From Scilla litardierei (taxonomy: Eukaryota; Streptophyta; Magnoliopsida; Asparagales; Asparagaceae), in assembly GCA_030789695.1 (NCBI GenBank), contig CM061140.1:82088422-82152421 (forward strand): a stretch of 64,000 nt of DNA, written 5' to 3'. The position numbers and the translations under genes were made by a program. Under the pieces are notes generated by a model. It saw only the letters and a program-made list of their open reading frames with translations. It was not told the origin of the DNA and searched no databases. Numbering within the stretch: the first letter of the stretch is position 1; the number at the start of each line of letters is the position of its first letter. Shown here one piece after another: positions 782 through 53,259 of the stretch.

Positions 782-1158
782 CACTCGGCCGAGTGGAGGA
801 GCCACTCGGCCGACCAGCGAGACACCGCTCGGCTGACCAGTTCAGACACGATTTCTATGTGCACTCGGCCGAGCGACGGAGACCACATCGGCCGAGTGAC
901 GAGACCACGTCCGCCCGAGTGGCGCCCAGACGAAGCCTTTCAAAAATCTCCAAGTTTCTGTTTTTCGGCTGCCTGAGCTTCAGAAGACCCACTCGGCCGA
1001 GTGGAGAATCCTGTCCGCCCGAGTACTATGAAGCCATCGGCCGAGTGACGACAACTCACTCGGCCGGGCCGCCCCCGAAGTAGAGACCCCTGAAGGCCCC
1101 GACTTACTGGAAAATTACAGGGTTTTCACTCGGCCGAGCGACTTTTGTCACTCGGCCG
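782..1158 (+). promoter_or_regulatory. CTCGGCCGAG palindrome array upstream of the LTR TATA box
   Basis: About twelve copies of the palindrome CACTCGGCCGAGTG or one-sided variants, at about 782, 803, 826, 862, 887, 912, 990, 1015, 1034, 1055, 1127 and 1149. Neighbours in a pair start 21-24 bp apart; the clearest pair is 1127/1149, exactly 22 bp, making a 32-bp module. The array stops about 85 bp before the TATA box. It is probably an enhancer, by analogy with repeated U3 boxes of other plant LTRs; this role is inference. Confidence 0.7.
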
Positions 1159-1244
1159 AGTGCGATGCGCTGCCTGTAGCGAAAACTGCGAAAAACAAGC
1201 TGTGCAGGGGTATTTTGGTCACAGTTTTTGGACGATTTTGGGGG

Positions 1245-1254
1245 CTATTTAAAC
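1245..1254 (+). promoter_or_regulatory. Probable LTR TATA box
   Basis: CTATTTAAAC in the plus-oriented LTR, about 85 bp downstream of the palindrome array. It would start transcription near 1275, which places the stem-loops at 1641-1944 in the 5' leader. Confidence 0.5.
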
Positions 1255-1640
1255 CCTGTTTTTACCCTAGTTTTGGGGGCCTCTCTCTTAGATTTTTGCA
1301 GCTTTTTAGATTAGTTTTTTTAGCTTTATTCTTGTGATTGGAGAGGAGACAAAGATTGGAATTTTGTTGGATTAATTGAAGAACTCCATTGGTTTGCATC
1401 TCTTTTCCTTAAAAATTCTATTTTTATTGCTTATCTCAATATTGTGATGAATTCTATTGCTTATTTCAACGATTATTTTTGTGATCTTGCTATGATTTGT
1501 GAGTAGTCTCCACATCTTGGGGCGTGGGGATGAACCCTACAAGCCCATTTTCATATTTGTGATGAATTGGTAGAAATTGTGCTAGAATTGTTATTAGGGA
1601 TTAGATTGGGATCAATTTACTACGGATGGCTAGGTATTCA

Positions 1641-1944
1641 TATCAATTGGGATTTGCAAGAGATTGGATCCCAATTTGATAGGAAACCCTAGAAATCCGA
1701 ATTGGGTTGGAGTCGGATTTTCGAAGTATCGGTTTGCAAGAGATTGGACCGATACTAGGATTTCCGGTTGCAATTCCATGCCGATACTCGTTTGCAAGAG
1801 ATTGGACGGGTAGGAACTATCCCAATCTAGGTCGTGGACCGAGTTTGCAAGAGATTGGGCTCGGTGCGCGATTGGACGATGATGTTGATCCTAATGCTAG
1901 CTTCCCTAGGCTAGGGTTTGCAAGAGATTGGACCCAAACCTAGG
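1641..1944 (+). repeat. Array of five stem-loops with an identical 14-nt loop and unrelated stems
   Basis: The loop TTGCAAGAGATTGG occurs five times (1654, 1734, 1792, 1845, 1918). Each copy is flanked by arms complementary to each other but different between units. Unit 1 (1641-1681) has 13 pairs with one bulged base. Unit 2 (1725-1756) has 9 perfect pairs (AGTATCGGT/ACCGATACT). Unit 3 (1785-1812) has 7 pairs including one G-U. Unit 4 (1838-1865) has 7 pairs with one G-U next to the loop. Unit 5 (1905-1944) has 4 pairs, a 3x3 internal loop, then 6 pairs. Constant loop with changing but paired stems is the pattern expected of a selected RNA structure. Its role (packaging, translation, protein binding) is unknown. 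Confidence 0.85.
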
Positions 1945-2903
1945 ATGGCTATAGACCGGCAACAGCGCGAGAGCGTGAGCTTGGTTCTACATTCAGTTGC
2001 AACTAGTTCAACCAAATTCTCATTCAAGCAATTTTCATACCGATAAACCGCATTTATAAAATACGGTGAGTAGCGGGGATTCCACATTCCCTAGACGTTC
2101 TTTATTTGATTTGATATTTCCGCATTTTTGTCTGACGATTGTGACAGGATCGCCGAAGGAAAATTTCTCTCTTAAATAGCCAGGTTGATTTGAACAAGCA
2201 CGGTCATTCGTCCTCCCTGTGTTCGATAAACCGCTTGCCGCTATACCGTGCGCTTGCGGTAAAACTACAACCGTTCTTTGGGTCACATCCCAGAGCGATC
2301 AGGTACCTCCAGCCACACCAATATTCACTATATTCCCATACAGAGAAGTGAATACAAATCTCACAAGGAGATACCCCACAAAGAGGATTTATGCCCTACA
2401 CAAGGACCCAACCAATCCTACACAAGGATCAAGACTCCCACACAGAGAATCAGTAAATCCCACTCAAAGAATTAGGGTTAGCCCTACACTAGGACACTAG
2501 AACTCCCACAAAGAGAGTTACTCCCACAAAGAGAGTTATTACCACTAAGAGAATAAACCTAGTCCCACAAAGAGACACACTCCCACAAAGAGAGTATCCT
2601 AATCCCACAAAGAGAAATAGGGAAAAAAACAATTACACAAAGTAAAGTAAATACTCTTACCTATGCCTTGAGATGCTTACTCATGAATGAATGCAAGGCA
2701 TGGAAGAGGATCTCCAAGTGTTGAGATATGCTTGAGAGCACTTGGATGATTTCCCTTGAACTGGACTTCAATGCATGAAGAGGAATGAATGCTCAAAATA
2801 GGGAAATGAGGTAGCTTTAAAGTTGCTTATAGATCTCTTGAGATTTTAATTAGTATCAAGAGTAATCAAGAATCAATCAAGAAGTTTAAGAGATGGCAGC
2901 ACA

Positions 2904-2915
2904 CTCATATATATA
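2904..2915 (-). promoter_or_regulatory. Probable LTR TATA box (SIRE-like)
   Basis: On the minus strand the sequence reads CCTATATATATGAG, about 90 bp downstream of the nearest CAGTCGACTG module in the same orientation. Confidence 0.5.
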
Positions 2916-3002
2916 GGAACCCCATATCAAGCCCCAAAACCCAAGGAAACCGCCAAAGAAAGAATTCTGCAACGGCTAGAAACAGGGTGAAAATGACAGG
3001 AA

Positions 3003-3529
3003 CAGTCGACTGATGATCAAAAGACAGTCGACTGATCAACGGCTAGAAAATATCCAACGGCTATAATCTGAGCCAGGACAGTCGACTGACGAAGACAATA
3101 CAGTCGACTGACAAACAGGACATGCACCTGTTAATCCTTCAGCAGACGACTGCTGCATGGGATGGATCGAAATAGAGAGCTGCACTCTTTCTCCAGAAGA
3201 CCATACAGGCGACTGATGTTAATACTACAGTCGACTGTCAAATAGTCAGGCGACTGTACATTCTTCATCATTCGTCTGCTGTATAATATGGAGAGAAGAC
3301 AGAGAGATGTAGAGATTGCACTTACGCTAGACAGGCGATTGTTGGCTAATTTCCAAGCGACTGTAAGTATACAAGCGACTGTAAACTGATCGACAGACGA
3401 CTGTGCGTAAAGCTCAAGTTTGAGTCAATTGAAATGTTGACTTGAGCTGTGCAAATCAGGCGACTGTAGAATGATCTACAGGCGACTGGAAATCACCCAG
3501 TCGACTGTGTTTCCCTCAGCAGGCGACTG
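3003..3529 (-). promoter_or_regulatory. CAGTCGACTG/CAGGCGACTG module array (SIRE-like LTR)
   Basis: About nine pairs of 10-nt half-sites. Within each pair the half-sites are separated by 12 nt of unrelated sequence, giving exact 32-bp modules, for example 3003-3034, 3079-3110 and 3498-3529. Half-sites are CAGTCGACTG, CAGGCGACTG, CAGACGACTG or close variants. Spacing between modules is irregular. The array lies upstream of the minus-strand TATA box. Confidence 0.8.
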
Positions 3530-3973
3530 ATGGAAAGCCAGAGACTCCAAATGAGTCTTTGGACAAAGTGAACCTATTAGGTTGGATTCTATGATAATCC
3601 TAAGGCTCACTAAGATGGTAAAATGTATGTGCTTGATAAGTAAACCATCTAACAAGGCATTACAATAACCTAGACTCAAAAGAGAGAGAAAGCAATAAAG
3701 TAAATAATACATGGATTACATTGCTTTTCAAAGAGTCTAAGTCTTCAATCTTGATGCCTTGATTTCTCTCCATCATCTACAAGCTTTGGCACTCCTTGAG
3801 TCCAAACTTTGGCCCTTCTCCACTTGATGTCCATCCTTACACCAAGTGATTAGTCTCCAAGAAATATATTCTAGGAAATAAACTATGAGACTAAAATATG
3901 AGATTCATTAGCAACAACATAATGTTGTGATCATCATCAAAATAAGATTGGTATGAAACACCAATACTCAACA

Positions 3974-4810
3974 TTCCTTCCTTTTCTTTTAAGTTTATTA
4001 GAAATCGAAAAGTGATCTCATCCATCATTGTGAGTATGTTTCTTCATCGTCAATACCCGATCTTTGTGAAAATTCCTGACTATAAGTCGTGCCTTATAGC
4101 ATGTGATCTCAATATTTTCATTTATTTTTCTGACAAATACACATTTATATCACACAGGTTTGACACATTTTGATGTCTGGACTATTGGTCCAAATACTTT
4201 GCGTTTCTTAAGCGAGTCCAGCTTTGCTTCTATTACCTCATTCCACCTTTGACAATCATCTCTCTGTTTGATGTCAGCAACGGAGTGTGGATCAATATCA
4301 TCATTGCTTTTAGCGGCATGAATGGAAATATAAAACATGAAGTTATCATCGACGTTTATGCTTTTTCTGTCTAACACCTCCCAGGTACGTAGAAAGTTTA
4401 ATGATATTTCAGTTTCTCCTGAATTCTCCTCTTCATGGTGTTCCGGGAGGGATGAATGTATGGACATGAGCTCATTTTCCTGTGGTGTTTTGTCTCAAGA
4501 TCTTCAAGAGTTTTTCTCTTTCTAGGATTTTTATCCTTGGAGCTTGGTGGTCTACCTCTTTTCAGTCGAGGAAAAGTCACTTCTGCTGCTGGTGGATTGT
4601 ATCCATTCTCGGGATATCAATCCTAACTGGAGTATTGTAGCAGGTATATGTGATCTGATAATTTTCCTATTGTCAGTAAATGGATCTGATAACTGATGAA
4701 CTGTGTTCTGAAAGTGGAGAATCTTCATAATCTCATCTTCTCATTGCTTAGTTCTCGGATCATAGTGGGCTAATGTTTTTATGTCCCACGAGATAATTCG
4801 TAATGCATCA
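3974..4810 (-). pseudogene. Copia pol remnant: end of integrase region to start of RT
   Basis: Minus-strand frames spell fragments of a Ty1/Copia polyprotein in the expected order. First comes a stretch preceding RT (about 4790-4600). Next is a basic segment with KRGRPPSSKDKNPRKRK (4398-4580). After a frameshift, the conserved lead-in to RT follows (4150-4467, with WNEVIEAKLDSLKKR). RT begins at about 4150 but stops near 4000, where the SIRE-like LTR joins, so the remainder of RT and RNase H is absent. Stops and frameshifts show an old inactive copy. The purine-rich minus-strand sequence at 3974-3990 may instead be the polypurine tract of the LTR to its left. Confidence 0.7.
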
Positions 4811-4816
4811 GACTTC

Positions 4817-7602: not shown

Positions 7603-8166
7603 TAAAGGGTTTTCAGCGATCCTAAGGGCTCAAAATCGACGTCTAGCCTAAGTCGGACAGACGACGAATACAACAAAGCAGCGGAAAAATAACTTAAAAC
7701 CATTTTAAGTAAAGCCCTAAAGAAATTAAAACCTATCCTGAATATCTACTACCCGGGGTGGGTCTGACCAACCCCTAAATATAAATACGTAATAATTAAC
7801 TGCAATTAAAAATGCATAAACATAAACTACTAACTTTTGCCTTGCACGTTAGCAAAGCACAGAATCCCACAAACCAGTGCCCCGCGTTAGGGCTGAGCCG
7901 CTTCTCCCGAGCCGAACCGTGTCCTGAGGCGAGCAATCCCCCGAGCCAACCTCACGCTCCGAAAAGCTTCACTATGATAGATCCTTCGTCAAGACTTCGG
8001 ATCCGAATCAGAACTCCTTCGTGGCATTGCCAGAGCCCAAACAAGAGTAAGGAAGCAAAAGGGAAAAGGGAGGAATTAAGTTCAAGCTTTGATCCGGGCT
8101 TGCACATGTTTAATGGAGCTACGTTGATCTGAAGCTTGGTGCGAGTTTCAAGGAGGAGTGCTGGCC

Positions 8167-8180
8167 CTTATTTATATAGG
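8167..8180 (-). promoter_or_regulatory. Copia-1 3' LTR TATA box
   Basis: The minus strand reads CCTATATAAATAAGG; the partner LTR has the same element at 24430-24441. It lies about 310 bp downstream of the GC-rich palindrome cluster in minus orientation. Confidence 0.55.
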
Positions 8181-8489: not shown

Positions 8490-8572
8490 ACAACGAGGCA
8501 CGTGTGGGGCGCATGCGGCACACGTGCCCGCAACACGTGCCCAGCGGGTGCATGCAATGCACGTGCACCAAC
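8490..8572 (-). promoter_or_regulatory. CACGTG/GCATGC palindrome cluster in Copia-1 LTR
   Basis: Four CACGTG cores and two GCATGC cores lie within about 80 bp. Successive CACGTG cores are 22, 13 and 26 bp apart. CACGTG is the G-box core bound by plant bZIP and bHLH factors. The partner LTR has a diverged version at about 24755-24870. Confidence 0.5.
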
Positions 8573-9130: not shown

Positions 9131-9135
9131 CAACA
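9131..9135. repeat. Target-site duplication of Tekay-1 (left)
   Basis: caaca at 9131-9135 is repeated at 18876-18880. The related uninterrupted LTR reads 'cttcttccaacatactc' near 25420, confirming the empty site. Confidence 0.95.
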
Positions 9136-10849
9136 TGTCACGCCCCGCTTCCCTAAAATGGAGGCGAGGCGTGAGAAGGTCCGCACGAGAGTGGAGCTGT
9201 GAAGCCCCAAACCCGATTAGCGTCAATTAAACATAAGCAGGTCCCTGTAACCACAAACGGAACAATAATAATAACACAAGGAGAGACAGAAATAAAATCT
9301 CATATCTCATCATTTGTCCATGATGAAAGTTAAGTTCAACATCCAGAAAAGCCACCAGGCTAAAAGAAAGAGTCTAAAGGCCCAGAACAAGGCCAACAAA
9401 AGGAACAACGTAACAAAGTATAGGTGCTACGCACCGACAACAAAATAGAAGTCTAAAACAAAAGGGAAAGGCTCAGCAAAGACACTAGGACTGGTCCCCA
9501 GTGTCCACGTACTCCTTGCCAAACACAAGCTCGGGCTCGGCGTCAGCAAACACCTCGTCCTCAACAATGTACTCAGGCTCAGGGTCTAACATGTGTCACC
9601 CAAAAGAGTAAAGGGGCACATGTCAGCAAGTCTAAAAGACTTGGGTAAGGAAACTGAAAAGGAAGGCAACTAGCAACCTAGCAGTTATAGTATGTATGAC
9701 ATGGCAGTTATAACATGAGTGCACAAGTAAGACATGGTGAAACAATAAGTACAAGAGAACAATTATCAGGACAAGTCAAGAGTAGCCAAGCTACTAACAA
9801 TCTCAATCTTTTCACTAGTCACGTTTCAAGTTGTTTGTAGATGTTTACGCCTTACAGTTGAACGGTTTGGCATTCACGCTGATTGGCCGCTTAACACTAC
9901 CCTAGAACCCAGAGTTTACGCCTTACCACTGCAGTTGCTGATCGGGCAGACTCCCAGTTGATTGGCTGCTTAACTCTTACCCCCAATACCCATATGTGAA
10001 CGAGCCAGGGTCCCTGCACACGAGCTCAGTAAATGAGCCAGGGTTGCCCCGCACAAGAGCTCGTTTCCTGGATCACAACCAGGAGCGTATTCCATTTGGC
10101 ATAGGGGTACACCTAGCCTCAATCATTTCACAAGATGTAGCGGAGCTACGCAATCACGGGAACACTTAAAGAATGCAATGACATGACAATTAGTTTGCGT
10201 ACCGTTAATGGAAATTAAACATGACATGGTAGTTGTGCAACATGATAAATGTCGGATCTAGCTTAGTTGTCAAGCTAGTTCCTAAATTGCGCCTAGGCGA
10301 GTATCGTTTCGTCGCCTAGTCTCTTTTACGCCTACAACAAGCAAATGGCCTAAGACATGGCCCAAAACCCTAAGTGGCAAGTTTCACTTGCCTAGCACCG
10401 AGGATGACGATCAATGGGGGTTCGTCCCACGGACGCTAATCTACGGGGAAATCGCTGTTATGGAGAAACAATCATCAAAACAACATTCATTTCATTAGGG
10501 TTTCACAAAAACACAACGGGTTATGAAAACATTAAGAGATCGATTATTACCGTATCGGAAGCGGAAGAATGATGCCGAGCAAGCACGACAACGGAAGAAA
10601 CGCTCCGGAGAACCTAGGGTTCAGATCTGAAATGGATGGGGAAAATCTGTAGAAATGGGGTTTTGGGGGATTTTGGGGGTTTTGATGAAGGTTTGAGGAA
10701 GGTGGAAGGTGGAAAGTGTTAAGTGAGGGTTTGGATGATGGAGGATGAGCTTGGAATGAAGGTTTGAGGGTTTTGGGAAGATGAGAGCTCAATCGGGGAG
10801 AAATTAGGTTTAGAGTTGAAGAAGAATAAGAAGAAAACGTTTGGAGGGG

Positions 10850-10858
10850 TATTTATAG
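10850..10858 (-). promoter_or_regulatory. Tekay-1 3' LTR TATA box
   Basis: Minus strand CTCTATAAATACC, about 45 bp downstream of the first 32-bp module; identical in the other LTR at about 18135-18143. Confidence 0.65.
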
Positions 10859-10902
10859 AGTTTGGTGGCGGCTAGGGCAAAACTAGGGTTTACTGCGCTG
10901 AT

Positions 10903-11317
10903 TAGTCGGTCAAAGAACAACTGTTGACCGACTAGTTCGAGAACTAGTCGGTCGGTTGACCAACGCAGACCGACTAAGTGTAAACAGTAGCTCCAGACGA
11001 AAACCTGAACTAAGAGTTAGTCGGTCAAAGAACAACTACTGACCGACTAGTTTGACATCTAGTCGGTCGATGAACGTTCTTAGACCGACTAAAATTGAAC
11101 AGTAACTGGTACCAAAAATAGTTAATGAGTTAGTCGGTTAAAGGAGCATTGCTGACCGACTAGTTTGCAACCTAGTCGGTCAACCAACGTTCTTAGACCG
11201 ACTAACGATAAACAGTAACTCCTGAACATTTATCAAAGCCCACTAGTCGGTTCAAGAAGGTTTTCCGACCGACTGGATCGTCATCTAGTCGGTCGGTGTC
11301 CCTTCTTACACCGGCTA
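10903..11317 (-). promoter_or_regulatory. Eight 32-bp inverted-repeat modules TAGTCGGTC-N14-GACCGACTA
   Basis: Eight modules start at 10903, 10945 and then in pairs up to 11286. Each has a 9-nt arm TAGTCGGTC (or TAGTCGGTT), exactly 14 nt of variable sequence, then GACCGACTA (variants in the last two modules). Each could form a 9-bp stem or bind a protein dimer. The modules come in close pairs separated by 40-70 bp. Upstream of the minus-strand TATA box. Confidence 0.9.
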
Positions 11318-11589
11318 ATGTGCACTAAAAGTTCTGAAATGGAGCGCGAAGCTCCGGGATCGATTTCTAAGACTCCTAGGCTTGATCTAACAATAAGATA
11401 TGACCGATATGAAGCCCGTCACGAATGACTTAATCCAAAATCGACGATTCTAAAGAAGAAGCTAGAAAATCACGACGAAACGATCGAAAACGAAAGCTAC
11501 GGAGACGAAAACCACACATGAGGAGAAAATCCACCAAAACATATATATATAATATAATAAATCCAGATACAAGAAAACCAGTCGTTACA

Positions 11590-11635: not shown

Positions 11636-12538
11636 TCACGTGTCCGGAAACAAAAGTGGGAAACGCTCTCGCATCTCATCCTCATTCTCCCAAGTAGACT
11701 CTCCAGGCGAGCCGTGTCACCACATCACCCTCACAAGATTGACAACCTTGTTCCGAAGTGACTTCTGACGCCTGTCCAGAATCTACACTGGCTGCTGGTC
11801 ATACGTCATATCGGGTCGAACGGTAATCTCCGAGAAATCCACAGCATGAGATGGGTCGCTAATGTATCGACGAAGCTGCGACACATGGAAAACATTGTGA
11901 ACTCCTTCCAAGGATGGCGGCAAGGCTAAGCGGTAAGCTACCTCGCCAACCCTCTCTAGAATGTCAAACGGTCCAATGTATCACGGGCTCAACTTCCCTC
12001 GCTTCCCAAAGCGAATCACACCACGATTCGGGGAAATCTTCAAGAACACATGGTCGCCCGGCTGAAACTCCAAAGGACGACGTTTAGCATCCGTCCAATG
12101 CTTAAAACGGTCCTGATCAATCCTCAACCTCTCCCAAATGTTCCTGACAACGTCCACAGCCTCTACAATCATCTCAGGTCCCAACAGCTCACGATCACCA
12201 ACGTCATCCCAACTCAATGGCGATCGACATTTCCTCCCATAAAGAGCGGCGAAAGGTGCCATGCCAATACTAGCCTGGAAGCTGTTGTTGTAGGAAAACT
12301 CTACCAGATGTAGATGGTCCTCCCACGAACCCTTAAAATCCAACATGCACGCCCTCAGCATGTCCTCCAAGATCTGAATCGTCCTCTCGGACTGGCCATC
12401 CGTCTACGAATGGTACGCCGTGCTGAAACTCAGACGCGTACCCAAACTCTTCTGCAAACTCTACCAGAACTGAGATGTGAACCTCGTGTCTCTGTCCGAC
12501 ACGATACTCACGGGGACTCCGTGAAGTCGCACGACCTC
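11636..12538 (-). pseudogene. Tekay-1 integrase second exon: catalytic core end and chromodomain-like tail
   Basis: Continues integrase after the 71-bp intron. It encodes the second catalytic Asp region (IVSDRD), the third catalytic residue in QSER, the C-terminal DNA-binding region, the GPF segment and HVSQLR, and a tail typical of Tekay/Del chromoviruses with a degenerate chromodomain. The reading frame ends at TGA 11636-11638. In-frame stops at a Trp-flanking codon, in the HPQTDG region, after KLSP (a CGA-to-TGA type change near 11980), and twice in the tail make it inactive. The longest open piece is 11981-12370. Confidence 0.85.
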
Positions 12539-12609
12539 CTGCACGATTCACGTTACATCACCATCTAAACTAGAAAAAGGAAATAGAAACGGAGAGTAAA
12601 AGAATTTAC
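12539..12609 (-). other. Predicted 71-bp spliceosomal intron in Tekay-1 integrase
   Basis: Minus strand: donor GGAG|GTAAATTC at 12609 and acceptor CGTGCAG|GAG at 12539, with a T-rich interior. Removing it joins the two halves of integrase in phase 0 at a position where other Gypsy integrases are continuous. Without removal the protein ends 14 residues into the intron and lacks the second and third catalytic residues. Tekay-2 has a 73-bp intron at the same codon (60260-60332), though the interior differs. Confidence 0.8.
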
Positions 12610-14676
12610 CTCCAAGTATCTCCTCGCTAGCGCCTCAGTGGATTGTCCCACTCGGAATAGAATAAAGTGCGCGGATTTGGTCAATCGATCTACGATCACC
12701 CAAATCGCGTCATTCTGCTTCGGACTCCGAGGTAGTCCAGTCACGAAATCCATAGTGATGTGTTGCCACTTCCACTCCGGAATCGGAAGCGGTTGTAGCA
12801 ACCCGGCCGTACGCTGATGCTCCGCCTTCACTTGCTGGCAAACCAAACACTTGGCTACACTCCGAGCCACACTCCTCTTCATACCATGCCACCAATAATT
12901 CAGACGAAGATCCTTGTACATCTTGGTCCCACCAGGATGCACAGAATACGGCGAACTGTGTGCCTCCACCATCAACTCCTCTCTAATATCCCCAGCTGGC
13001 ACACACAACCTGGCTCCAAACCTCAGCGAGCCATCCTCATGAATCAAAAAGTCAGTCCGCAGACCGGCTTCCACCTGCTCCCGAATCTTAACCAACTTCG
13101 GATCTCTAACCTGGCCAGCCTTAATCCGATCCACGATCGTTGACTGTATATGCATACACATCAACGAAGAAACCTCCCCAGGAAGAACAACCTCAATCCC
13201 AGACTCGCAAAAATCCCGCTGCAGTCTCCACTGCGAGGTCAACAACATCACCGCTGGAAGCCTACTCAGCGCATCAGGAACCACATTCACCTTGCCAGGG
13301 TGATACTGCAAATCAATCTCATAATCTGCCATGAGCTCCAACCATCGACGCTGTCGCATGTTGAGCTCCTTCTGAGTAAAAATGTACTTCAAGCTTTTGT
13401 GATCGGTGAAAATCTTCACTTTCTCACACAGCAGGAAGTGCCTCCAAATCTTAAGAGCAAACACAACAGCAGCCAACTCCAAATCATGCGTCGGGTAATT
13501 CTTCTCATGAACCTTGAGCTGACGCGAAGCATAAGCCACTACATGCCCGTGCTGATGCAAAACACAACCGAGACCTTTGCCAGAAGCATCGCAAAAGATC
13601 TCAAATCCACCGCTGCGATCAGGCACAACAAGAATAGGGGCAGTCGTCAATCTCTCCCTCAGAACACCAAAAGCATTCTCACAATCACACGACCAAACAA
13701 AAGGTACATCCTTCCGCGTCAATCTGGTCATCGGCTCAGTAATACGGGAAAAGTCCTTAATGAAACACCGATAGTAACCGGCAAGCCCAAGGAAACTCCG
13801 AATCTCAGATGCTGACTGCGGAACAGGCCACTCTCTGATGGCCCTGACCTTCTCGGGATCCACTGAAATACCATCTCCAGTCACCACATGCCCGAGAAAA
13901 GCAACCCTGTCCAGCCAAAACTCGCACTTTGAAAACTTAGCATACAACCGATGCTTCCTCAAAATCTCCAATACCGTCCTCAAGTGCGAGGCATGCTCCT
14001 CCTCTGACTTTGAATAGATCAGAATGTCGTCAATAAAGATAACGACAAACGTATCCAAAAGGTCATAGAAAATCAGGTTCATCAGATTCATGAAAACTGC
14101 GGGTGCGTTAGTTACGCCGAAAGGTATAACCACAAACTCATAGTGTCCATACTTCGTCCTGAAAGCTGTCTTCGAAACATCATCCTTCTTCACCTTCAGC
14201 TGATGATAACCGCTTCTCAGATCCAACTTCGAAAACACCCTCGAACCTCCAAGCTGATCAAAAATATCATCGATGCAAGGCAACGGGTATTTATTCTTGA
14301 TGGTCACCGCATTCAACTCCCGATAGTCCACGCACATGTGACACGAACCATCCTTCTTCTTCACCAGCAGCACCGGTGCTCCCCACGGAGACACACTCGG
14401 GTTGATATAACCCTTCTGCAAAAGCTCATCCAGCTGCTTCCGCAATTCCTCCAACTCAGCGGGTGCCATACGATACGGCGCCTTCGAATTCGGTTGCGCT
14501 CCCGGAAGAAGATCAATAGAAAATTCTAAAGCTCGTTCAGGTGGCAACCCAGACATCTCCTCGGGGAAGACATCATCAAAATCCCGCACAACCGCTGGCC
14601 TCTCCAGCTCCATCTGCATAGCCACAACCTCCACTGGCCTGGCCCGAAACCTAACCGGACCAAGCGAACTGCTATC
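12610..14676 (-). pseudogene. Tekay-1 RT, RNase H and integrase first exon
   Basis: Open for 689 codons from an ATG at 14634, and preceded in frame by protease with one TGA at 14677-14679. Domains: RT about residues 45-255 with YRELN (104) and the catalytic FIDD (200-203); RNase H about 340-455 with catalytic Asp350, Glu386, Asp411 and Asp454; integrase H2C2 zinc finger with His559, His566, Cys596 and Cys599; the first catalytic Asp at 629. The element-encoded frame leaves the exon after residue 675, where the intron begins. Copies the genomic RNA and starts integration in virus-like particles. The piece itself is intact, unusually so for this window. Confidence 0.92.
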
Positions 14677-15029
14677 TCAGCAGAACTCAAACACTGGATG
14701 TCCGGGAATCTCGAACACCACCTTCTTCCTCCGACAGTCGATCGTAGCATAGAAGCTCGCAAGCCAATCCATCCCAAGGACCGCATCATAGTTGATGATA
14801 TCGTGGACAATGAAATCAGCGTAAAGCTCATGTCCACAGACCACCAACGGGCAAGAATTGCAACCAAGATGCACCGAGACCACGCCATTTCCCGTGATGA
14901 TATTCCAACTCTTCGGAAGAGGGGACGTCGACAAGGAATGCTTCCCCACGAAGCTCCGAGAAATAATACACATCGATGCACCAGAGTCAAAGAGGACTCG
15001 CGCAGGAAAAGTGCACACCAAAATCACAC
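14677..15029 (-). pseudogene. Tekay-1 aspartic protease exon
   Basis: Contains the retroviral-type protease motif DSGAS followed by hydrophobic strands and the second conserved GMDWL element. It would cleave the Gag-Pol polyprotein. The upstream end at 15029 is set by the predicted acceptor, since the bases beyond it show no protein similarity. It ends at an in-frame TGA at 14677-14679, after which the frame continues directly into RT. The stop could be a mutation or a site of readthrough; one copy cannot tell. Confidence 0.85.
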
Positions 15030-15140
15030 CTACAAACAGTCTAACAATCATGCCCTAGTCTAGCAAACAATCATGTTCAAGCAAGCAACATAATCTAACA
15101 AACAAGCCAAATAAGAAAGGAACAGCTAGGTGAGGATTAC
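15030..15140 (-). other. Predicted 111-bp spliceosomal intron between gag and protease (Tekay-1)
   Basis: Minus strand donor CGCAG|GTAATCC at 15140, acceptor TTTGTAG|GTGTG at 15030, T-rich interior, phase 1. The gag stop codon (15055-15057) lies inside it. Splicing puts gag and protease in a single frame; unspliced RNA ends translation just after Gag. That would give a splicing-controlled Gag to Gag-Pol ratio. Confidence 0.7.
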
Positions 15141-16277
15141 CTGCGATAACCTCTTCCACAGCCCCGTTCTCCACAGCGGTCATCAGAAAAGCCTGCCTCC
15201 TCGGTGGAATAGCATGCTGAAAAGCCTGCCTCTGTGGAACAAGAGCTGCTCCACGTCCAGCAGGAACAGTCGCTCTCTGCTGCAACGGCTGTGCTGCAAC
15301 AGGTGCCCTCCGCAGCTGATTCGCATGCCGACAATCCTTCGCGACATGAGAAGCATCACCACAAACCAAACACTGGCCCAGAAACTTCCTACACTGATCC
15401 TTGATGTGGCCAGGCTTGCCGCAGAAATGGCAAGTCTTCAGATTAGGCCCTCCTGGCCTCTTGAACTGCACCGGATGATTAGGCTTGAAACCAGGCCTAA
15501 CCACCGCTTCGGCCTGCTCCATAGGCCTCTTCCCAGCACCAGAAACATGTCCTCTCCTCTGACTCAGGTTCAGCTCCTGCCTCCTCGTAGCGACCAGAAC
15601 CTTCTGATAAGAGTCCAGATCAGAGGAAGACACAAAACTCTGGAGCTCCAAAGTAAGTCCCTGTAGGAACCTCTGAGCCCTCTCATCAGCATCCTGCACC
15701 ATCTTCGGTGCGAACCGACTAAGCCTAGTGAACTCTTGGTGGTACAGGTCCACCGTCAAGCTCCCTTGCTTCAGGTCAATAAAGCGCTGCAAAATCTCCT
15801 TCCTGCAGCCTTCGGAAAGAACTCCTCATCAAACCTGGACTTAAAGGTAGTCCAAGCTATCGGCTCCACCAACATCTTCTCTTCCGCATCCCACCAGTTC
15901 CGAGCATTATCCTTGAGTTGCCTCTTCGCCAAATCAACCCATCCAGCCGGGGTGATCTTGGCCATCTTCAAATTTTCCTCAATGTTCCGAATCCACTCAT
16001 CGACGGCCAGAGGACCCTCAGACCCATCAAAATATGCGGGACCCAGCTCCCGAAATTGCTTCGCTCCCGGCTCGGAGCGAGGGGCCTCCGGAGTTGCCCA
16101 AACAGCTCGACCAGCAGGAGCATTCTGGACTTGCAGGAGCACGCCTTGCTGCACCTGCATCATCTGAAGCATCATCCGCATCATCTCTCCATTGGTGGGT
16201 TCCCGCTCAGGCTCCTCATCATGAGGGGGCGCACCACTACCACTACCACCACCACGGGTGATTCACCTTCCTGCCAT
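15141..16277 (-). pseudogene. Tekay-1 Gag (capsid and nucleocapsid)
   Basis: Starts at ATG 16277, followed at the fifth codon by TGA in a CGA-like context, then a Gly/Ser-rich stretch and the capsid domain (WIRNIEENLKMAK, LAKRQLKDNARNWW). A 1-nt deletion near 15795 shifts the frame within FFPKAA / ILQRFIDLKQG. The second half (15141-15792) has two CCHC zinc knuckles, CHFCGKPGHIKDQC and CLVCGDASHVAKDC, that bind genomic RNA. The last codon is completed across the predicted intron. Gag assembles the particle. The leader from the LTR to the ATG is only about 145 bp. Confidence 0.9.
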
Positions 16278-16422
16278 CTAGTGACACAGAAAACGAAACA
16301 ATTAGACTCATAGCTTATGACTCGTACGTCGAACTTAGTTTATTGGACATTCTAATATTATTATCGCTATTCCAGCAATTCGCAGTTACAGAAGAGGACC
16401 TGCATGGGCCACCAACAAAACC
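16278..16422 (-). other. Tekay-1 leader and primer-binding region
   Basis: 145 bp between the 5' LTR and gag. The expected TGGTATCAGAG primer site is not obvious; a TGGTGGCCC sequence lies about 10 nt from the LTR on the minus strand. The primer tRNA is unresolved. Confidence 0.5.
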
Positions 16423-18134
16423 TGTCACGCCCCACTTCCCTAAAATGGAGGCGAGGCGTGAGAAGGTCCGCACGAGAGTGGAGTTGTGAAGCCCCAAACC
16501 CGATAAGCGTCAATAAAACATAAGCAGGTCCCTGTAACCACAAATGGAACAATAATAATAACACAAGGAGAGACAGAAATAAAATCTCATATCTCATCAT
16601 TTGTCCAACATGAAAGTTAAGTTCAACATCCAGAAAAGCCACCAGGCTAAAAGAAAGAGTCTAAAGGCCCAGAACAAGGCCAACAAAAGGAACAACGTAA
16701 CAAAGTATAGGTGCTACGCACCGACAACAAAATAGCAGTCTAAAACAAAAGGGAAAGGCTCAGCGAAGACACTAGGACTGGTCCCCAGTGTCCACGTACT
16801 CCTCGCCAAACACAAGCTCGGGCTCGGCGTCAGCAAACACCTCGTCCTCAACAATGTACTCAGGCTTAGGGTCTAACATGTGTCACCCAAAAGAGTAAAG
16901 GGGAACATGTCAGCAAGTCTAAAAGACTTGGGCAAGGAAACTGAAAAGGAAGGCAACTAGCAACCTAGCAGTTATAGTATGCATGACATGGCAGTTATAA
17001 CATGAGTGCATAAGTAAGACATGGTGAAACAATAAGTACAAGAGAACAATTATCCGGACAAGTCAAGAGTAGCCAAGCTACTAACAATCTCAATCTTTTC
17101 ACTAGTTAAGTTTCAAGTTGTTTGTAGATGTTTACGCCTTATAGTTGAATGGTTTGGCATTCACGCTGATTGGCCGCTTAACACTACCCCAGAACCCAGA
17201 GTTTACGCCTTACCACTGCAGTTGCTGATCAGGCAGACTCCCAGTTGATTGGCCGCTTAACTCTTACCCCCAATACCCACATGTGAACGAGCCAGGGTCC
17301 CTGCACACGAGCTCAGTAAATGAGCCAGGGTTGCCCCGCACAAGAGCTCGTTTCCTGGATCACAACCAGGAGCGTATTCCATTTGGTATAGGGGTGCACC
17401 TAGCCTCAATCATTTCATAAGATGTAGCGGAGCTACGCAATCACGGGAACACTTAAAGAATGCAATGACATGACAATTAGTTTGCGTACCATTAATGGAA
17501 ATTAAACATGACATGGTAGTTGTGCAACATGATAAATGTCGGATCTAGCTTCGTTGTCAAGCTAGTTCCTAAATTGCGCCTAGGCGAGTATCGTTTCGTC
17601 GCCTAGTCTCTTTTACGCCTACAACAAGTAAATGGCCTAAGACATGGCCCAAAACCCTAAGTGGCAAGTTTCACTTGCCTAGCACCGAGGATGAAGATCA
17701 ACGAGGGTTCGTCCCACGGACGCTAATCTACGGGGAAATCGCTGTTATGGAGAAACAATCATCAAAACAACATTCATTTCATTAGGGTTTCACAAAAACA
17801 CAACGGGTTATGAAAACATTAAGAGATCGATTATTACCGTATAGGAAGCGAAAGAATGATGCCGAGCAAGCACGACAACGGAAGAAACGCTCCGGAGAAC
17901 CTAGGGTTCAGATCTGAAATGGATGGGGAAAATCTGTAGAAATGGGGTTTGGGGGATTTTGGGGGTTTTGATGAAGGTTTGAGGAAGGTGGAAGGTGGAA
18001 AGTGTTAAGTGAGGGTTTGGATGATGGAGGATGAGCTTGGAATGAAGGTTTGAGGTTTTTGGGAAGATGAGAGCTCAATGGGGGAGAAATTAGGTTTAGA
18101 GTTGAAGAAGAATAAGAAGAAAACGTTTGGAGGG

Positions 18135-18143
18135 GTATTTATA
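18135..18143 (-). promoter_or_regulatory. Tekay-1 5' LTR TATA box
   Basis: Minus strand CTCTATAAATACC, about 46 bp downstream of the first module of the array. This copy would start the genomic RNA. Confidence 0.65.
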
Positions 18144-18188
18144 GAGTTTGGTGGCGGCTAGGGCAAAACTAGGGTTTACTACGCTGAT

Positions 18189-18603
18189 TAGTCGGTCAAA
18201 GAACAACTGTTGACCGACTAGTTCGAGAACTAGTCGGTCGGTTGACCAATGCAGACCGACTAAGTGTAAACAGTAGCTCCAGACGAAAACCTAAACTAAG
18301 AGTTAGTCGGTCAAAGAACAACTACTGACCGACTAGTTTGACATCTAGTCGGTCGATGAACGTTCTTAGACCGACTAAAATTGAACAGTAACTGGTACCA
18401 AAAATAGTTAATGAGTTAGTCGGTTAAAGGAGCATTGCTGACCGACTAGTTTGCAACCTAGTCGGTCAACCAACGTTCTTAGACCGACTAACGATAAACA
18501 GTAACTCCTGAACATTTATCAAAGCCCACTAGTCGGTTCAAGAAGGTTTTCCGACCGACTGGATCGTCATCTAGTCGGTCGGTGTCCCTTCTTACACCGG
18601 CTA
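18189..18603 (-). promoter_or_regulatory. Eight 32-bp modules TAGTCGGTC-N14-GACCGACTA (5' LTR copy)
   Basis: Same eight modules as at 10903-11317, with half-sites and spacers almost identical between the two LTRs, as expected for a recent insertion. Confidence 0.9.
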
Positions 18604-18875
18604 ATGTGCACTGAAAGTTCCGAAATGGAGCGCGACGCTCCGGGATCGATTTCTAAGACTCCTAGGCTTGATCTAACAATAAGATATGACCGATATGAAG
18701 CCCGTCATGAATGACTTACTCCAAAATCGACGATTCTAAAGAAGAAGCTAGAAAATCACGACGAAACGATCGAAAACGAAAGCTACGGAGACGAAAACCA
18801 CACATGAGGAGAAAATCCACCAAAACATATATATATAATATAATAAATCTAGATACAAGAAAACCAGTCGTTACA

Positions 18876-27690: not shown

Positions 27691-28113
27691 CAGTCGACTA
27701 CTGAACAAGCGTCAGTCGCCTGACGACAGGCGACTGTTGTTGGACAGACAGACGCCTGGTTGGGTAGGCCGCGTAGCTTCCAAATGAAGGCAGTCGACTG
27801 TCTTGAATATTACAGTCGCCTGTGTGATCCACATGCGCCTGTATTTTGTGTTACATGCGCCTGCTGCAGAAGTGCTAAATTTAACAGTAAGTTGGCTCTT
27901 TTGGCCCCCTCAGGCATATGAGAAATCAGGCGACTGCTACGAAAATGGAAGGCGACTGCACAATATCCAGTCAACTGTCAATCCTCTTGCAGGCACCTGT
28001 CATTGCGCTTCACTTTCTCCAGCTCCAGCTCTTCTAAGGCAGGCAACTGCTGTTGTCCAGGCAGTCGCCTGTTTGGTTGCCCAAGCGCCTGTCATTCCTT
28101 CTACGTGCAACTG
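27691..28113 (-). promoter_or_regulatory. CAGTCGACTG/CAGTCGCCTG module array
   Basis: Eight modules, each of two 10-nt half-sites with a 12-nt spacer (32 bp), for example 27691-27722 and 28082-28113. Half-site variants include CAGTCGCCTG, CAGGCGACTG and CATGCGCCTG. The same half-site family is used by the SIRE-type LTRs. Confidence 0.8.
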
Positions 28114-48371: not shown

Positions 48372-49033
48372 TGTAAGGACCCTGTCTATGGGGAAAACAC
48401 TAGAAGGGGGGTTGAATAGTGTTTATGCAAATTTAAAAGGAATTTATGCCAAATAAAATGCAATCCAACAAATAGTGCGGAATAGAAAAACAACCCAAAA
48501 TGAAACACACGTAAACGCAGAGATGTTTTAAGGGTTCGGATTACCCAAGTCAACTCCCGACTTGTTCCCGGTAATCCTACGTCCCTACCAACCGGATACT
48601 CAAGTTAGAACCCTAACTTGAGGTTTCCTTAAAGCCCACTTGTAGCAACCCTACAAGTGAAATCGAATACAATCGATGTCCTTAACTCCCACAACAAGGG
48701 AGCAAGCAAAACCACTCTCACAACCGAGAGCACAACTCAAATAACGAATGTTATGAAATAATGAAAACAACACTTACAATCACCTATGCCTTGAAGTAGA
48801 ACTTGAAGGAGGAGTGTGATGTGTGTTGAAGAACTCTCTTGGAAGAGAGGAAAAGCCCTTTCTCTTGAATGCACCAATTGCCTAGAAGATCACTCTTTGG
48901 TTCTAGGTTGGAGAGCAAGAGAACAAGATATGGAAATACTTAGGGCTTTGGATTTGAGAGCTTTGATCTTTGGAAATGAAAGCTTGAGAGATTTTGCAAT
49001 GAATGAGTCACCTTCCAATGGAACAGTAAAAGC

Positions 49034-49046
49034 TCTATTTATAGTT
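49034..49046 (-). promoter_or_regulatory. SIRE LTR TATA box
   Basis: Minus strand AAACTATAAATAGAGCT, about 85 bp downstream of the first module. Confidence 0.65.
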
Positions 49047-49130
49047 TTCTCAAATCCACAAAACAGTTTAGGCAAAAACCCAATTGAAATCCGTGAGAAA
49101 AATCTCAACGGATATAATCTGAACTCGCGA

Positions 49131-49780
49131 CAGTCGACTGTTGAACAATCCTCAGTCGACTGTTGCACAGTCAGCAAGGGTAGGTGAGAATTCATAACGG
49201 TAACTTACCACGTGGACAGTCGACTGATGAAGCAAAGACAGTCGTCTGTTAAACCAACAGGCGACTGTAATTTCTTCGACAGGCGACTGGCCGAGAGATG
49301 TGTAAGTTAGACAAATACTGGAAATCTCACAAGTAACAGGACAGACGACTGATTCAAGACATGCAGTCAACTGTTAATCAGAACATGCGACTGTAAATCC
49401 TTAAACCGACGACTGTCAAAAGCAAGAGAAATTTCCAGAGAGCTGAGTCAAAGAAATGACTTACAGATAGGCGACTGTTGCAGCATAGACAGTCGACTGA
49501 TCCAATAGACAGTCGACTATATATACAGCATTAGTCGACTGGCCGTAAAAGTCAGATCAAACAAAGTTTGGGCAAGGATAGACAGGCGACTGATTTACAA
49601 AGCACAGTCGACTGTCATTTGGACAGGCGCATGTGAATCGTTCATCAATAGCCTGTGTGAAATAATCGGAGAAGGCCCAAAACTATATTGTAATAGTCTG
49701 TGCATAACAGGCGACTGTAGAACAAAACACATTCGACTGTTTTTGAGACAGGCGACTGTAAACTGTTCAGCAGTCAACTG
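49131..49780 (-). promoter_or_regulatory. CAGTCGACTG module array in SIRE LTR
   Basis: About eleven modules, each of two 10-nt half-sites separated by exactly 12 nt (32 bp), e.g. 49131-49162 and 49749-49780. Half-sites vary (CAGTCGACTG, CAGGCGACTG, CAGACGACTG, CATTCGACTG) but the spacing does not. Confidence 0.85.
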
Positions 49781-50177
49781 TTATAAGCAATCCTAGCACA
49801 AACAATAAAGAATTGAATTGGGATCAAAGGACAATTGATCTAATGAAGTCTTTATGACTGAATATAGATGTGTGTGAGTGCTCCATCAAGGTTCTACTTC
49901 TAAGCTACATACTAGAAGAGATAAAAGAAAAATTGCATTGACGAAAAATCTCTTTTTTCTATCGTATGAGCTTGAAGTCTTTACGGAGCTTCAATCATCA
50001 ATCTACGATCATCCAATTCATGTCATTTGCCTTCAATAACGTTTGTGAGTCATCCATTGCTAGTAGATCTTCATAATTAGCTTAGGCAATGGATTAACTG
50101 CAAAATAGGGGATTAGTCACAAGTATTTATGTTTGCTCATCATTAACACCAAGTAAGGAGAAGTCCAATACTCAACA

Positions 50178-50957
50178 TTCTCCCCCTTTTTGATGATGAC
50201 AAACCAACATAAACAAAAAGATAAATAATTGTGCGCAATGAAAACTTACTCCCCCTACATAGATGCCAATCAAGTTAGTCAACAAATATTAGAGCACCTA
50301 CATAACAATTGAACCAAATGAGTGAGATATGGATGAATTCAATTCAAGAAATCTAGGAAATAAAATCACTACTCATTGTAATCTTACTCCCCCGGAATCT
50401 AAGGCAACGTAAATCTTAGATTCAAGAGTTAGAACATACTTAGCACATCCATTATGAATCTTGCATGTTTATTTCTTTCCCGCTATGGCATTATCCAAAA
50501 AGGTGGGAGCAGATTACAACAACAATAATAGTGCTAAATATGAACTAACAACAATCAAGGAGTATAAAGATATATCGAATCAAAACTCATAAAATCACAT
50601 CATATACACATGTTAGTAATGGAATTGAAGTCCAATATCAACATTTTAGATATACGAAATGAAAATAATTTCAAAAATTTCATCACATCAGAGATAGCAT
50701 GAAATAACCAATATCAAATCCATATATTGTCTCAAAAGCACATCAAAGAGAGTATAGCATACATGGAGACAACATATCATACATCACACAGATAAGATAA
50801 ACAGTATAGCATAGTGTGACACAAGATAAACAGCAACAACATATATAGATATATAGAAAATGAGTACATCAACGGATGGTCATCTACATGGCCATCACAA
50901 AAAGATACATCATAATCAAGACAAAAAATACATCATCATGACGACTGCAAGGTACAT

Positions 50958-50996
<39 letters not shown>

Positions 50997-51131
50997 AAAA
51001 TTTTCAAATGAGAACATTTCGCACCGTGCGAAAATGTTTTTACATATATATATAGAGTCACTGACAACATCATCCACAACACATCAAAAAAAATACAATC
51101 ATCACCAAACTAACACCACTCAAACACATAT
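50178..51131 (-). other. SIRE 3' untranslated region
   Basis: AT-rich, with the polypurine tract at 50178-50192 and an (AT)n tract at 50962-50993. A hairpin lies at 51013-51038 (AACATTTCGCAC and its complement with one extra A). No gene. Confidence 0.6.
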
Positions 51132-52573
51132 CTAAGAGTGAGCGTCTCCAGCGGCTGCAGAAGAAGAAGCAGGCTCTGAGACAGCAGGTGTATCCTCTGG
51201 AGGAGGGTCAGAAGGAGCAACAGTAGCATCATCATCATCATCATCCTGAGTAGAGCTACACCAGGAGGCTCAACGACATCAGTGGGCTGAGGAGGAACAT
51301 GAAGCTGGGGAACAAACTGTCTCAGATCCTCAGGGAAGGGTATTCCCTGATGGAGGAAAGAGAGGGACAGCAATCTGTAAATACCAGAGACCATCTCCAA
51401 AAGAATATCACGAGATGGTGGAGCAGAGGTGGAAGGCAGATCAGCTGGAGGAACAGTGGATGAGGACAGAGCTGAAGTAGATTTCCTCATCTTCGAGGCA
51501 GTCTGTAGAGCCGAAGAAGATTTCGACTTTGCAGATGCATCGAGGAGAGGACCAAATGGCATAGGCTCGTAATGAGTCAAGTCAACACCAAAATGACGGA
51601 AGACATGAGTCATAAGACCACCGTAAGGAATGTGAGACGAGGAGGACGTGAACTCAACCTTGTCCATCCTATCAAGGAGGACACCGGCCCAGTTCACGGG
51701 CATGCCAGAGAAAATAGCATACATACACTTCAGGATATCCTGAGACGGCTGGTCAGATGATCCATACCTCGACAGGATGTTGGACTTCACCACTAGGTGA
51801 ACAGCCCAACCTCTCGCAGAGAACATAGATGATCTGACACCCGAATCAAGAGCTAAAGGTACCTCTCGAAACATATCCCGAAGGACAGACTGGTCAAGGT
51901 CGTCAATCTCGGAGATGCAGATATCAGTGGGAAGGGAACCAACAGAGGGAATCCTAAGAATAGTCCCTAAGAGAGAGGGAGAGATCTGAATGTGGGTTCC
52001 CTGAACGACAGTATCGAGGATGCCGGTAGACGAATACTCACCGCGAACGCGGTTCGCATAGAAGAGCTTCACCAGAAATGGATAGGCTCTGGGGGATTCG
52101 CTCTGATAGAAGCGAAAAAGGTCGGCTAGGTGAGTAGCAGAAAGAATGTCAGAAAGCCTCTCAGCAGTGAAGGCGAGGAAAGCAATGTACCGCTACCAAA
52201 GAAGGTTGATCCCTAGAAGAGAGTGAAATTTTGCCAGACAAAGATCGTCTCGGCAAACGGGAACTAGGGGATCAGAGGGGGGTACGGCAGGAGTCTCTTC
52301 AGAAGAACTCAAAACTGAAGGGGACAGATGGGGAGCGTCAGTAATAGGCTCATTGATGGCAAGATCAATGCGCTTCCGCTGACGCTTGATCAGGGGCTGA
52401 GCGTCGGAAGAAGAAGCTGAAGGTGAGTAACCCTGCGAAGAAGAAAGCACGGGTGACTCGGCTTGTTTGGATCGGGCTTTGTGGGGTTCTTTCTTCTTGG
52501 CAATAGGTTTCTTGGGTGTTCTAGGACATTTAGGAGCAACAATCTTCTCTTTTCCCTTAGGTTTGGGAGCCAT
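51132..52573 (-). pseudogene. SIRE ORF3: extra protein with helical domain and acidic tail
   Basis: About 480 codons on the pol strand, ATG at 52573. N-terminal ~90 residues are Lys/Pro/Ser-rich and basic (KPKGKEKIV, KRQRKRIDLA). A central domain (~130-300) has ANRVRGEYSSTGILD, SPSLLGTILRIPSVG and NILSRYGSSDQPSQDILKCMYAIFSGMPVNWAGVL, like 'putative plant transposon protein' domains. Next comes a Ser/Thr/Pro linker, then an acidic tail in the alternative frame ending at 51132. One TAG at 52193 and one frameshift near 51245 interrupt it. SIRE elements are known for an extra ORF here; function is unknown. It has its own upstream array and TATA box. Confidence 0.75.
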
Positions 52574-52822
52574 GGAAACGAGAGAATGAGAAACAAAGCA
52601 AAGGAATCGGAAGACAAAAATCCGAACGAAAAAGGCTAGAGAGAGAAGCAAACCAAGTAGAGAAGCAACGATGATCGGGGAGGAGGAGATCGACGGCAAC
52701 GATAGCACGAGATCGACTCAAGAAGGGAAGACGATCGACGGTTTTGGAGAAGAAATCGAGCGGGAAGACGAACGGTCGAATCGGATGAGAGAGAGCCGAC
52801 GTGGGGAAGTGATCGCGCATTC

Positions 52823-52835
52823 TCGAATATAAAAT
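52823..52835 (-). promoter_or_regulatory. Putative TATA box of SIRE ORF3
   Basis: Minus strand TTTTATATTC, 250 bp upstream of the ORF3 ATG and 79 bp downstream of the module array, mirroring the arrangement in the LTRs. Confidence 0.45.
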
Positions 52836-52912
52836 TTGGGGAAAGAATCTGAGCCGTTGGATCAAGGAATCGACGGCTCGGATCAAATCACTTGAACCGT
52901 CTCAACAGAAGA

Positions 52913-53259
52913 CAGTCGACTGATGAACAAATGTCAGTCGACTGGATGAAGTGATAAAAATAAAGCTCAGAGATAGGCAGTCGACTGGCAAGTAACATGC
53001 AGTCGCATGTCCATTGGACAGTCGACTGACATATACTCAACAGTCGGCTGGCCGAGAATTAATACAGTTCATCAAAATAACAGAGAACACTGTAAAAATT
53101 CGACAGAGAGAACAGTCGCCTGATGACTAAAATGCAGTCGCCTGTTAAACTAACAGTCGGCTGTAAATCAGTCATTAGTCGACTGTGCGAAACATACCAA
53201 AACTCAGACTTAGGAGATAGATTAGGGCAGACGACTGTCGAATGAAAGACAGTCGTCTG
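52913..53259 (-). promoter_or_regulatory. CAGTCGACTG module array upstream of ORF3
   Basis: Six modules with the 10-12-10 layout (32 bp), e.g. 52913-52944 and 53228-53259. Half-sites include CAGTCGACTG, CAGTCGCCTG and CAGTCGGCTG. Separate from the LTR: 2.7 kb inside the element, between RNase H and ORF3. Confidence 0.85.

Follow-up and report, generated by a model that had tools for sequence, protein, structure and literature searches.

Paired CG boxes 22 bp apart in Sirevirus-type and Gypsy retrotransposons of Scilla litardierei: candidate operators in long terminal repeats and upstream of an env-like gene

Introduction

A 64,000-bp stretch of Scilla litardierei contig CM061140.1 (hereafter the window) holds long terminal repeat (LTR) retrotransposons whose non-coding DNA carries arrays of short, CG-containing boxes. 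An initial annotation of the window described these boxes as paired at a start-to-start distance of about 22 bp and placed them in LTR promoters of unrelated elements. This raises the question of what the fixed distance means, and how both Copia and Gypsy elements came to have it. Our analysis favours, with a probability of roughly 0.7, the reading that arrays of two box types, CAG (CAGTCGACTG) and TAG (TAGTCGGTC), are cis-regulatory operators of Sirevirus-type Copia elements, and that one of the types has been exchanged with Gypsy elements.

Results

Boxes form pairs and quartets of fixed length

Boxes were found at the annotated places in all seven arrays of the window (Table 1). When CAG boxes were counted as CAGNCGNCTG with at most one mismatch, pairs at exactly 22 bp numbered 8 in array S1, 7 in S2, 10 in S3 and 6 in S4. 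Random placement of the same boxes gave means of 0.51, 0.48, 0.64 and 0.37 pairs, respectively, with maxima of 5, 5, 6 and 3 over 20,000 trials. The TAG-type array of a Gypsy element, named Tekay in the initial annotation, has 8 '><' pairs in each LTR (at most two mismatches). The resulting 31 + 16 pairs agree with the early estimate of about 45 modules. These counts confirmed that the fixed 22-bp geometry, about two helical turns, is real and stronger than first stated.

The pairs combine into quartets, a larger unit that had been overlooked. All complete TAG quartets inspected read > 22 < 20 > 22 <, measured from CG to CG. The CAG layout is 22-19-22 with variants of 18 or 20 in the middle: of 25 CAG quartets, two of which overlap each other (L027; L numbers denote loci elsewhere in the assembly), 18 were 22-19-22, 5 were 22-20-22 and 2 were 22-18-22. 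The Tat-type array, a label also taken from the initial annotation, was scored with at most three mismatches and has successive distances of 21, 23, 36, 23, 23, 82, 22, 22, 23, 70 and 22 bp. Eight of these 11 lie within 21-23 bp, the others being those of 36, 82 and 70 bp.

TAG boxes were perfect in 129 of 158 leave-one-out tests, in which LTR twins were kept, and the CG of the core was retained in 149 of the 158, as had been expected. Spacers within one locus agree at 54-58% of positions and thus differ at ~42-46%. Lengths inside TAG quartets are invariant, and the gaps between complete TAG quartets vary from 44 to 61 bp, down to 38 bp in L038. Length is therefore held within quartets and free between them. 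CAG boxes share the CG core only; 36 of 130 are perfect palindromes, and the palindromic CGG-CCG core is not present. TAG pairs contain CGG...CCG, yet the single TAG box is not palindromic. Among the matches listed, the 10 bp between the inner boxes of TAG quartets are often GTTNNNNAAC or GATNNNNATC, which is a further dyad.

Pairs with 0-30 bp between the boxes were counted across the 3.68-Gb assembly that holds the window, where counts of large repeats are lower bounds. Exact CAGTCGACTG pairs numbered 32,684, of which 29,442 had 10-14 bp and 25,691 (78.6%) exactly 12 bp between the boxes; reversed-pattern controls found 18, 1 and 0 places. Of 483,096 TAGTCGGTC...GACCGACTA pairs (TAG, '><'), 481,387 (99.65%) had exactly 14 bp between them (reversed controls: 1 and 0). 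The converse GACCGACTA...TAGTCGGTC arrangement occurred 253,859 times (control: 0), with 10 bp between the boxes in all ~100 of the matches listed. For CTCGGCCGAG, the Tat-type box, 89,271 of 90,144 pairs (99.0%) had 11-13 bp between them, equal to a start distance of 21-23 bp (reversed controls: 26 and 0). The possibility that 22 bp is no commoner than other spacings genome-wide was thus checked, and the array rule withstood it. With exact pairs of a single type numbering roughly half a million in this one genome, any binder would meet an enormous pool of copies. A scan of viral contigs for the arrays gave 11 single stretches, about the chance level by our estimate.

The rule was also examined in an unselected sample of 20 pieces of 10 kb from the assembly, 8 of which contain at least one CAG or TAG array. 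Among neighbour distances of at most 30 bp, all 109 TAG distances were 22 ('><') or 20 ('<>'); for the CAG type, 30 of 43 were 22, and 40 of 43 were either 18-20 or 22. In a wider set, from which LTR twins were omitted (window >15,000; L025 >9,000; L017 >6,000), the rule fitted 123 of 123 TAG and 126 of 130 CAG neighbour distances. A local variant was seen at G000:C1:2942190-2942259, where CAGTCGACTG boxes recur at a 20-bp period with near-identical spacers.

Arrays lie in Sirevirus-type LTRs and upstream of ORF3

S3 and S4 are parts of one minus-strand Copia element, which consists of a 5' LTR remnant, gag-pol, S4, open reading frame 3 (ORF3) in an env-like position, and a 3' LTR with S3. In this element the polypurine octamer AGGGGGAG starts 10 bp before the 3' LTR. 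S1 contains 17 and S3 21 box copies, both in LTRs, and S4 contains 12 internal copies. These numbers reach the eight or more copies per element of a symmetric, repeated box, most of them within LTRs, that are described for the RM boxes of Sireviruses. On its sequence features, namely the octamer, ORF3 and the boxes, we call the S3/S4 element Sirevirus-type; S1, S3 and S4 all belong to Sirevirus-type Copia elements. The description of the array-bearing elements as unrelated consequently does not hold for these three, two of which share one element, and S4 is an internal array before ORF3 rather than the LTR promoter region that it was taken for.

The order pol, array, ORF3, LTR array recurs in L023, L036, L037, L025, L031 and L016/L038, as far as these stretches reach. 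In 7 of the 7 Sirevirus-type elements read at both places (these six and the window element), LTR array and internal array share one type, and extra boxes upstream of the env-like gene, where this gene is present, are seen in S4, L023, L025, L031, L036, L037 and L038. L025, L031 and L016/L038 are Copia elements with TAG boxes, a type noted earlier only in Gypsy. The window element at 9.1-18.9 kb, L018 and L021 are Gypsy. In the window Gypsy element the RVT_1, RNase H and integrase zinc domains are clear; a chromodomain match stayed sub-threshold in its relatives (E 0.0018 and 0.0027), the end of the window integrase lying outside the scan. The arrays hence occur in both superfamilies, as first reported. 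Outside the 7/7 count, part of a TAG array lies at L036:19-160, ahead of pol in a CAG-type element, and probably belongs to another element that was inserted. L012 and L014 (G000:C1:74255 and 79197) are S1-type LTR copies ~4.9 kb apart; this spacing suggests a short, probably non-autonomous element with an S1-type array.

The LTR arrays are promoter-proximal. In six of the seven arrays of the window, both Tekay-like LTRs being counted, a TATA-like match on the expected strand lies 49-127 bp from the edge of the array; in S1 and S3 the boxes are upstream of an LTR TATA box at a distance of 92 bp. Every array had been said to end upstream of a TATA box, and this failed for S4, where the only TATAAAA is on the opposite side and strand. 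Of the 14 CAG or TAG arrays of the unselected sample, 8 have a TATA-like match within 100 bp on one side and 1 has a match only at 171 bp. The other 5 have none within 220 bp, and 3 of those are internal arrays before ORF3.

Gypsy and Sirevirus TAG arrays are related beyond the boxes

The initial annotation held the spacers to be unrelated and the geometry alone to be kept. For the TAG type this is not the case. Spacers of Gypsy and Sirevirus TAG quartets (38 quartets, LTR twins omitted: window >15,000; L025 >9,000) had a mean identity of 0.542 compared to 0.288 after shuffling (357 comparisons, maximum 82%), and 9 of the best ten cross-family matches join quartets located at corresponding array ends. 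The U3 (unique 3') DNA directly upstream of the Gypsy array aligns to that of L016 and L031 over 86-154 bp at 64-74%, with E values down to 1.7e-16. When 170 bp of array-adjoining U3 was compared, z was 3.2-20.7 in 12 of 12 Gypsy-Sirevirus pairs, one score only equalling the shuffle maximum; z was 11.6-20.7 for L016 and L031, and L025, which is more distant, gave 3.2-8.5. On the TATA side, alignments of Gypsy with Sirevirus gave z of at most 3.0, never above the shuffle maximum. Judged by these alignments, the TAG arrays and ~150 bp of adjoining U3 are homologous across Gypsy and Sireviruses. Independent convergence of the TAG type was accordingly rejected, and the homology of spacers and adjoining U3 points to a segment exchanged between the superfamilies. 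A promoter-proximal control segment can thus move between Copia and Gypsy elements. Transfer was probably from Sirevirus to Gypsy, since Sirevirus boxes are found in distant monocots and eudicots, according to the available text of Bousios 2010 (PMC2829016). In the available part of PMC3601003, trees of LTRs are reported to group those of chromoviruses with those of Copia, possibly as a result of such exchanges.

The CAG and TAG types may also be related to each other, because their spacers are weakly alike and both favour GAA at CG+8. In comparisons restricted to de-duplicated pairs, spacer likeness was 4.41 of 12 compared to 3.93 (standard deviation 0.09); it was best at the right register, with two rotated registers near (4.32 and 4.26). 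GAA at CG+8 was the commonest offset, found in 9 of 39 CAG and 11 of 31 TAG non-redundant pairs, and is possibly a contact shared by both types.

Table 1. Arrays, elements and TATA-like boxes in the window (positions count from its first base)
Feature	Position	Strand	Details
Tat-type array	782..1160	+	12 sites like CTCGGCCGAG
TATTTAAA near Tat-type array	1246-1253	+
LTR of Sirevirus-like element	2302..3985	-	starts TGTTGAGTATTGG; full-length match to L012/L013 (one place) and L014, 89% over 1692 bp
TATATAT near S1	2909-2915	-
S1, CAG-type array in Sirevirus-like LTR	3003..3529	-	quartets 22-20-22, 22-19-22, 22-18-22, 22-19-22
Gypsy element, 3' LTR	9132..11589	-	ends approximate; 98.6% over 1590 bp to 17287-18875
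TATAAAT near 3' LTR TAG array	10851-10857	-
TAG-type array, Gypsy 3' LTR	10903..11317	-	4 quartets > 22 < 20 > 22 <, gaps 51, 49, 49
Gypsy gag-pol	11648..16277	-	reverse transcriptase, RNase H, integrase
Gypsy element, 5' LTR	16419..18875	-	ends approximate
TATAAAT near LTR-twin TAG array	18137-18143	-
TAG-type array, Gypsy 5' LTR twin	18189..18603	-
TATAAAA near S2	27562-27568	-
S2, CAG-type array	27691..28113	-	unclassified element related to L015 and L017
Sirevirus-type element, 3' LTR	48390..50177	-	lower end approximate; ends set by inspection
TATAAAT near S3	49037-49043	-
S3, CAG-type array	49131..49780	-	one pair and five quartets 22-19/20-22
Polypurine octamer AGGGGGAG	50180-50187	-	before 3' LTR start at 50177
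ORF3, env-like position	51113..52573	-	PF20167 (Transposase_32); ATG at 52573; stop interrupts at 52193-52195
S4, CAG-type internal array	52913..53259	-	between pol stop and ORF3; two quartets and two pairs
Copia gag-pol remains	53531..57412	-	RVT_2 in two scanned pieces
5' LTR remnant of same Copia element	57532..57620	-	89 bp

Other repeats of the window

A tandem repeat of ~98 bp lies beside the S2 array at 28374-28908. Another repeat family is present as divergent copies in both orientations (7602-9172, 23855-25815, 30754-32405, 36764-38559, 38664-40989 and 45231-47248), and the CAG and TAG arrays fall outside these copies.

Discussion

We propose that each operator is made of quartets that repeat every ~100-140 bp, the CG-centred sites within them being spaced by about two helical turns, and that it would act at two places, ahead of the TATA box of the LTR and ahead of ORF3. 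The TAG type, together with neighbouring U3, would have been passed between Sireviruses and Gypsy, where it would work upstream of a different core promoter. We infer that each quartet is occupied by a protein whose dimers line up along one face of the DNA; once bound, it could drive or de-silence transcription of the genomic RNA and of ORF3. The oligomer geometry of this protein would be fixed and its base preference lineage-specific (CAG, TAG and perhaps CTCGGCCGAG boxes), and each site would offer a methylatable CG. Lengths fixed inside quartets but free between them, together with an absence of hairpin compensation (see below), are consistent with an operator in DNA that a protein recognises as tandem dimers. 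The shared arrays suggest that otherwise unrelated families share a control signal.

Several observations weigh against this interpretation. The genome-wide counts are inflated by copying and show abundance more than constraint, since copies inherit their spacing. The 38 TAG quartets of the spacer comparison were selected by exact spacing. Among distances of 31-95 bp, those of the CAG type tend to a 10.5-bp period (R 0.55 on unique values), which is only suggestive and comes in part from lost boxes, and those of the TAG type have no clear 10.5-bp phasing (R 0.34, p ~0.18). A consensus TATA box on the promoter side was absent in 4 of 4 internal arrays (S4, L023:9305-9545, L025:5582-5965 and L031:1385-1570), unlike most LTR arrays, and for this reason a promoter for ORF3 can only be inferred. 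In one Copia element with PF20167 (L041), 7.4 kb of sequence contained no paired boxes; L041/L042 did show three isolated boxes with one mismatch each, over a stretch in which the LTR was not delimited. The direction of transfer rests on the breadth of Sirevirus boxes in the available text of PMC2829016, without a tree.

A related question is which protein would read the arrays. One idea, which we regard as tentative and rather unlikely, is that ORF3 itself (PF20167) is a box-specific autoregulator or anti-silencer like VANC, exploited by Gypsy elements that have no such gene. The pre-ORF3 array matches the LTR array in type throughout the seven elements, and the ORF3 clade agrees with the box type in 6 of 6 elements that have a PF20167-like ORF3. 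Within a type, ORF3 sequences are 61-87% identical, and between types 36-45%, compared to 68-87% between types for pol pieces, and no ORF3 match was found in the window Gypsy element or in the available stretches of L018 and L021. However, the pol clades split in the same way, so co-inheritance explains the agreement of ORF3 with box type, and ORF3 diverges fast within types too. Coevolution of box and ORF3 was set aside as inseparable from co-inheritance. Moreover, 2 of 6 ORF3 pieces fall below the Pfam cut-off (42.6 and 31.1 vs 45 bits), L037 combines CAG arrays with an open reading frame that has no PF20167, and L041 has the domain and no paired boxes. A sequence-profile search of ORF3 against solved structures in PDB gave no match, and a search of an ORF3 piece against a protein database gave no homologue at E 0.001. 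Domain scans of ORF3 pieces returned PF20167 or nothing, DUF1985 and DUF287 not being found, and there was no literature match on the Sirevirus envelope-like protein as DNA-binding. The fuller proposal is slightly more doubtful still: ORF3 would be a sequence-specific DNA-binding regulator that recognises the quartet operator of its own element, both in the LTR and ahead of the ORF3 gene, operator type and ORF3 would co-diverge, and Gypsy would have captured the operator and live off the Sirevirus regulator. If true, this would be a selfish transcription network spanning two retrotransposon superfamilies. The arrays also offer a handle on the long-open question of the function and expression of the Sirevirus env-like gene.

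Two observations concern ORF3 relatives. At L041 (G000:C8:139001200-139005600) the end of a Copia-like pol overlaps an open 923-aa frame with PF20167 near the frame end, and many of the 150 matches that were scored have open frames close to this length (914-926 aa). The open frame downstream of the internal CAG array of L037 (L037:3937-4656, minus strand) appears ORF3-like by eye in its C-terminal half and is possibly a frame-keeping internal deletion of ORF3.

Alternatively, the boxes could act as RNA, with inverted boxes forming transcript hairpins that feed small-RNA silencing or packaging. The TAG boxes do form inverted pairs, transcription includes the U3 of the 3' LTR, and work on maize Sirevirus palindromes reportedly ties these to small RNAs. 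Against this, compensated changes were seen at 1 of 48 variant positions in TAG boxes and at 12 of 121 in CAG boxes, where shuffling predicts 10.8 (standard deviation 2.3), and a hairpin needs no constant loop length. RNA hairpins were rejected on this lack of compensation in either type, and we consider this explanation very improbable. The least probable explanation is that the spacing is a functionless relic left by tandem duplication and extensive copying: units of the Tekay-like LTR are 71-73% alike and the genome has hundreds of thousands of exact pairs, but TAG boxes stay perfect while spacers differ by up to ~45%, length changes occur between quartets and not within them, and 21-23 bp is kept by three box types.

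The preferred reading, a DNA operator, has parallels in known systems. The EBNA1 sites of oriP and the LANA sites are paired viral operators with a centre spacing of ~21-22 bp; by analogy, they would work alike, with dimers that sit on one face of the DNA at a distance of about two turns, in other hosts and with other proteins, and no kinship is claimed. The U3 boxes of Tnt1 and ONSEN likewise repeat factor-binding sites in the promoter of a plant LTR; they differ in being few-copy sites for stress factors, and we know of no quartet rule for them. Transcription factors considered as possible readers are DREB-like factors, for the ACCGAC in the TAG box, and AGT-core zinc fingers.

The VANDAL/VANC anti-silencing system, in the available parts of PMC5735166 and PMC10398659, is similar in that a short motif is repeated in the non-coding DNA of plant transposable elements, that target motifs shift between related elements, and, possibly, that the reader is element-encoded. 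It differs in that VANDALs are DNA transposons, their tandem repeats come without a described fixed pair geometry, and VANC has the DUF1985 and DUF287 domains, which were not found in ORF3.

The closest known system is that of the Sirevirus RM boxes, published in 2010 for LTRs and for the region ahead of the env-like gene (PMC2829016). The statement that no such cross-family phasing was known therefore stands only in part: the box arrays were described, and the spacing rule and the sharing with Gypsy are not stated in the available text. That text calls the boxes Sirevirus-specific and absent from classic Copia, and proposes that they support an internal ENV promoter. The arrays described here agree with it in several ways: the CG boxes are dyad-symmetric, present in high copy number and placed ahead of TATA in the LTR, extra copies precede ENV, the box sequence varies by element, and the AGGGGGAG octamer lies before the 3' LTR. 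Unlike the 12 of 13 boxes listed there, which have a CGG-CCG core (the exception being Tnd-1), CAGTCGACTG is without this core. A literature search on CAGTCGACTG gave no title on plant LTRs, searches on TAGTCGGTC and CTCGGCCGAG gave no LTR title among the matches listed, and the array geometry was not met in the titles or abstract openings of the matches listed. As far as these matches and the available text reach, the geometry, the quartet, the 22-bp rule and the cross-superfamily segment are new. Compared to the published RM boxes, a loosely described LTR motif thereby becomes an exact, testable operator grammar.

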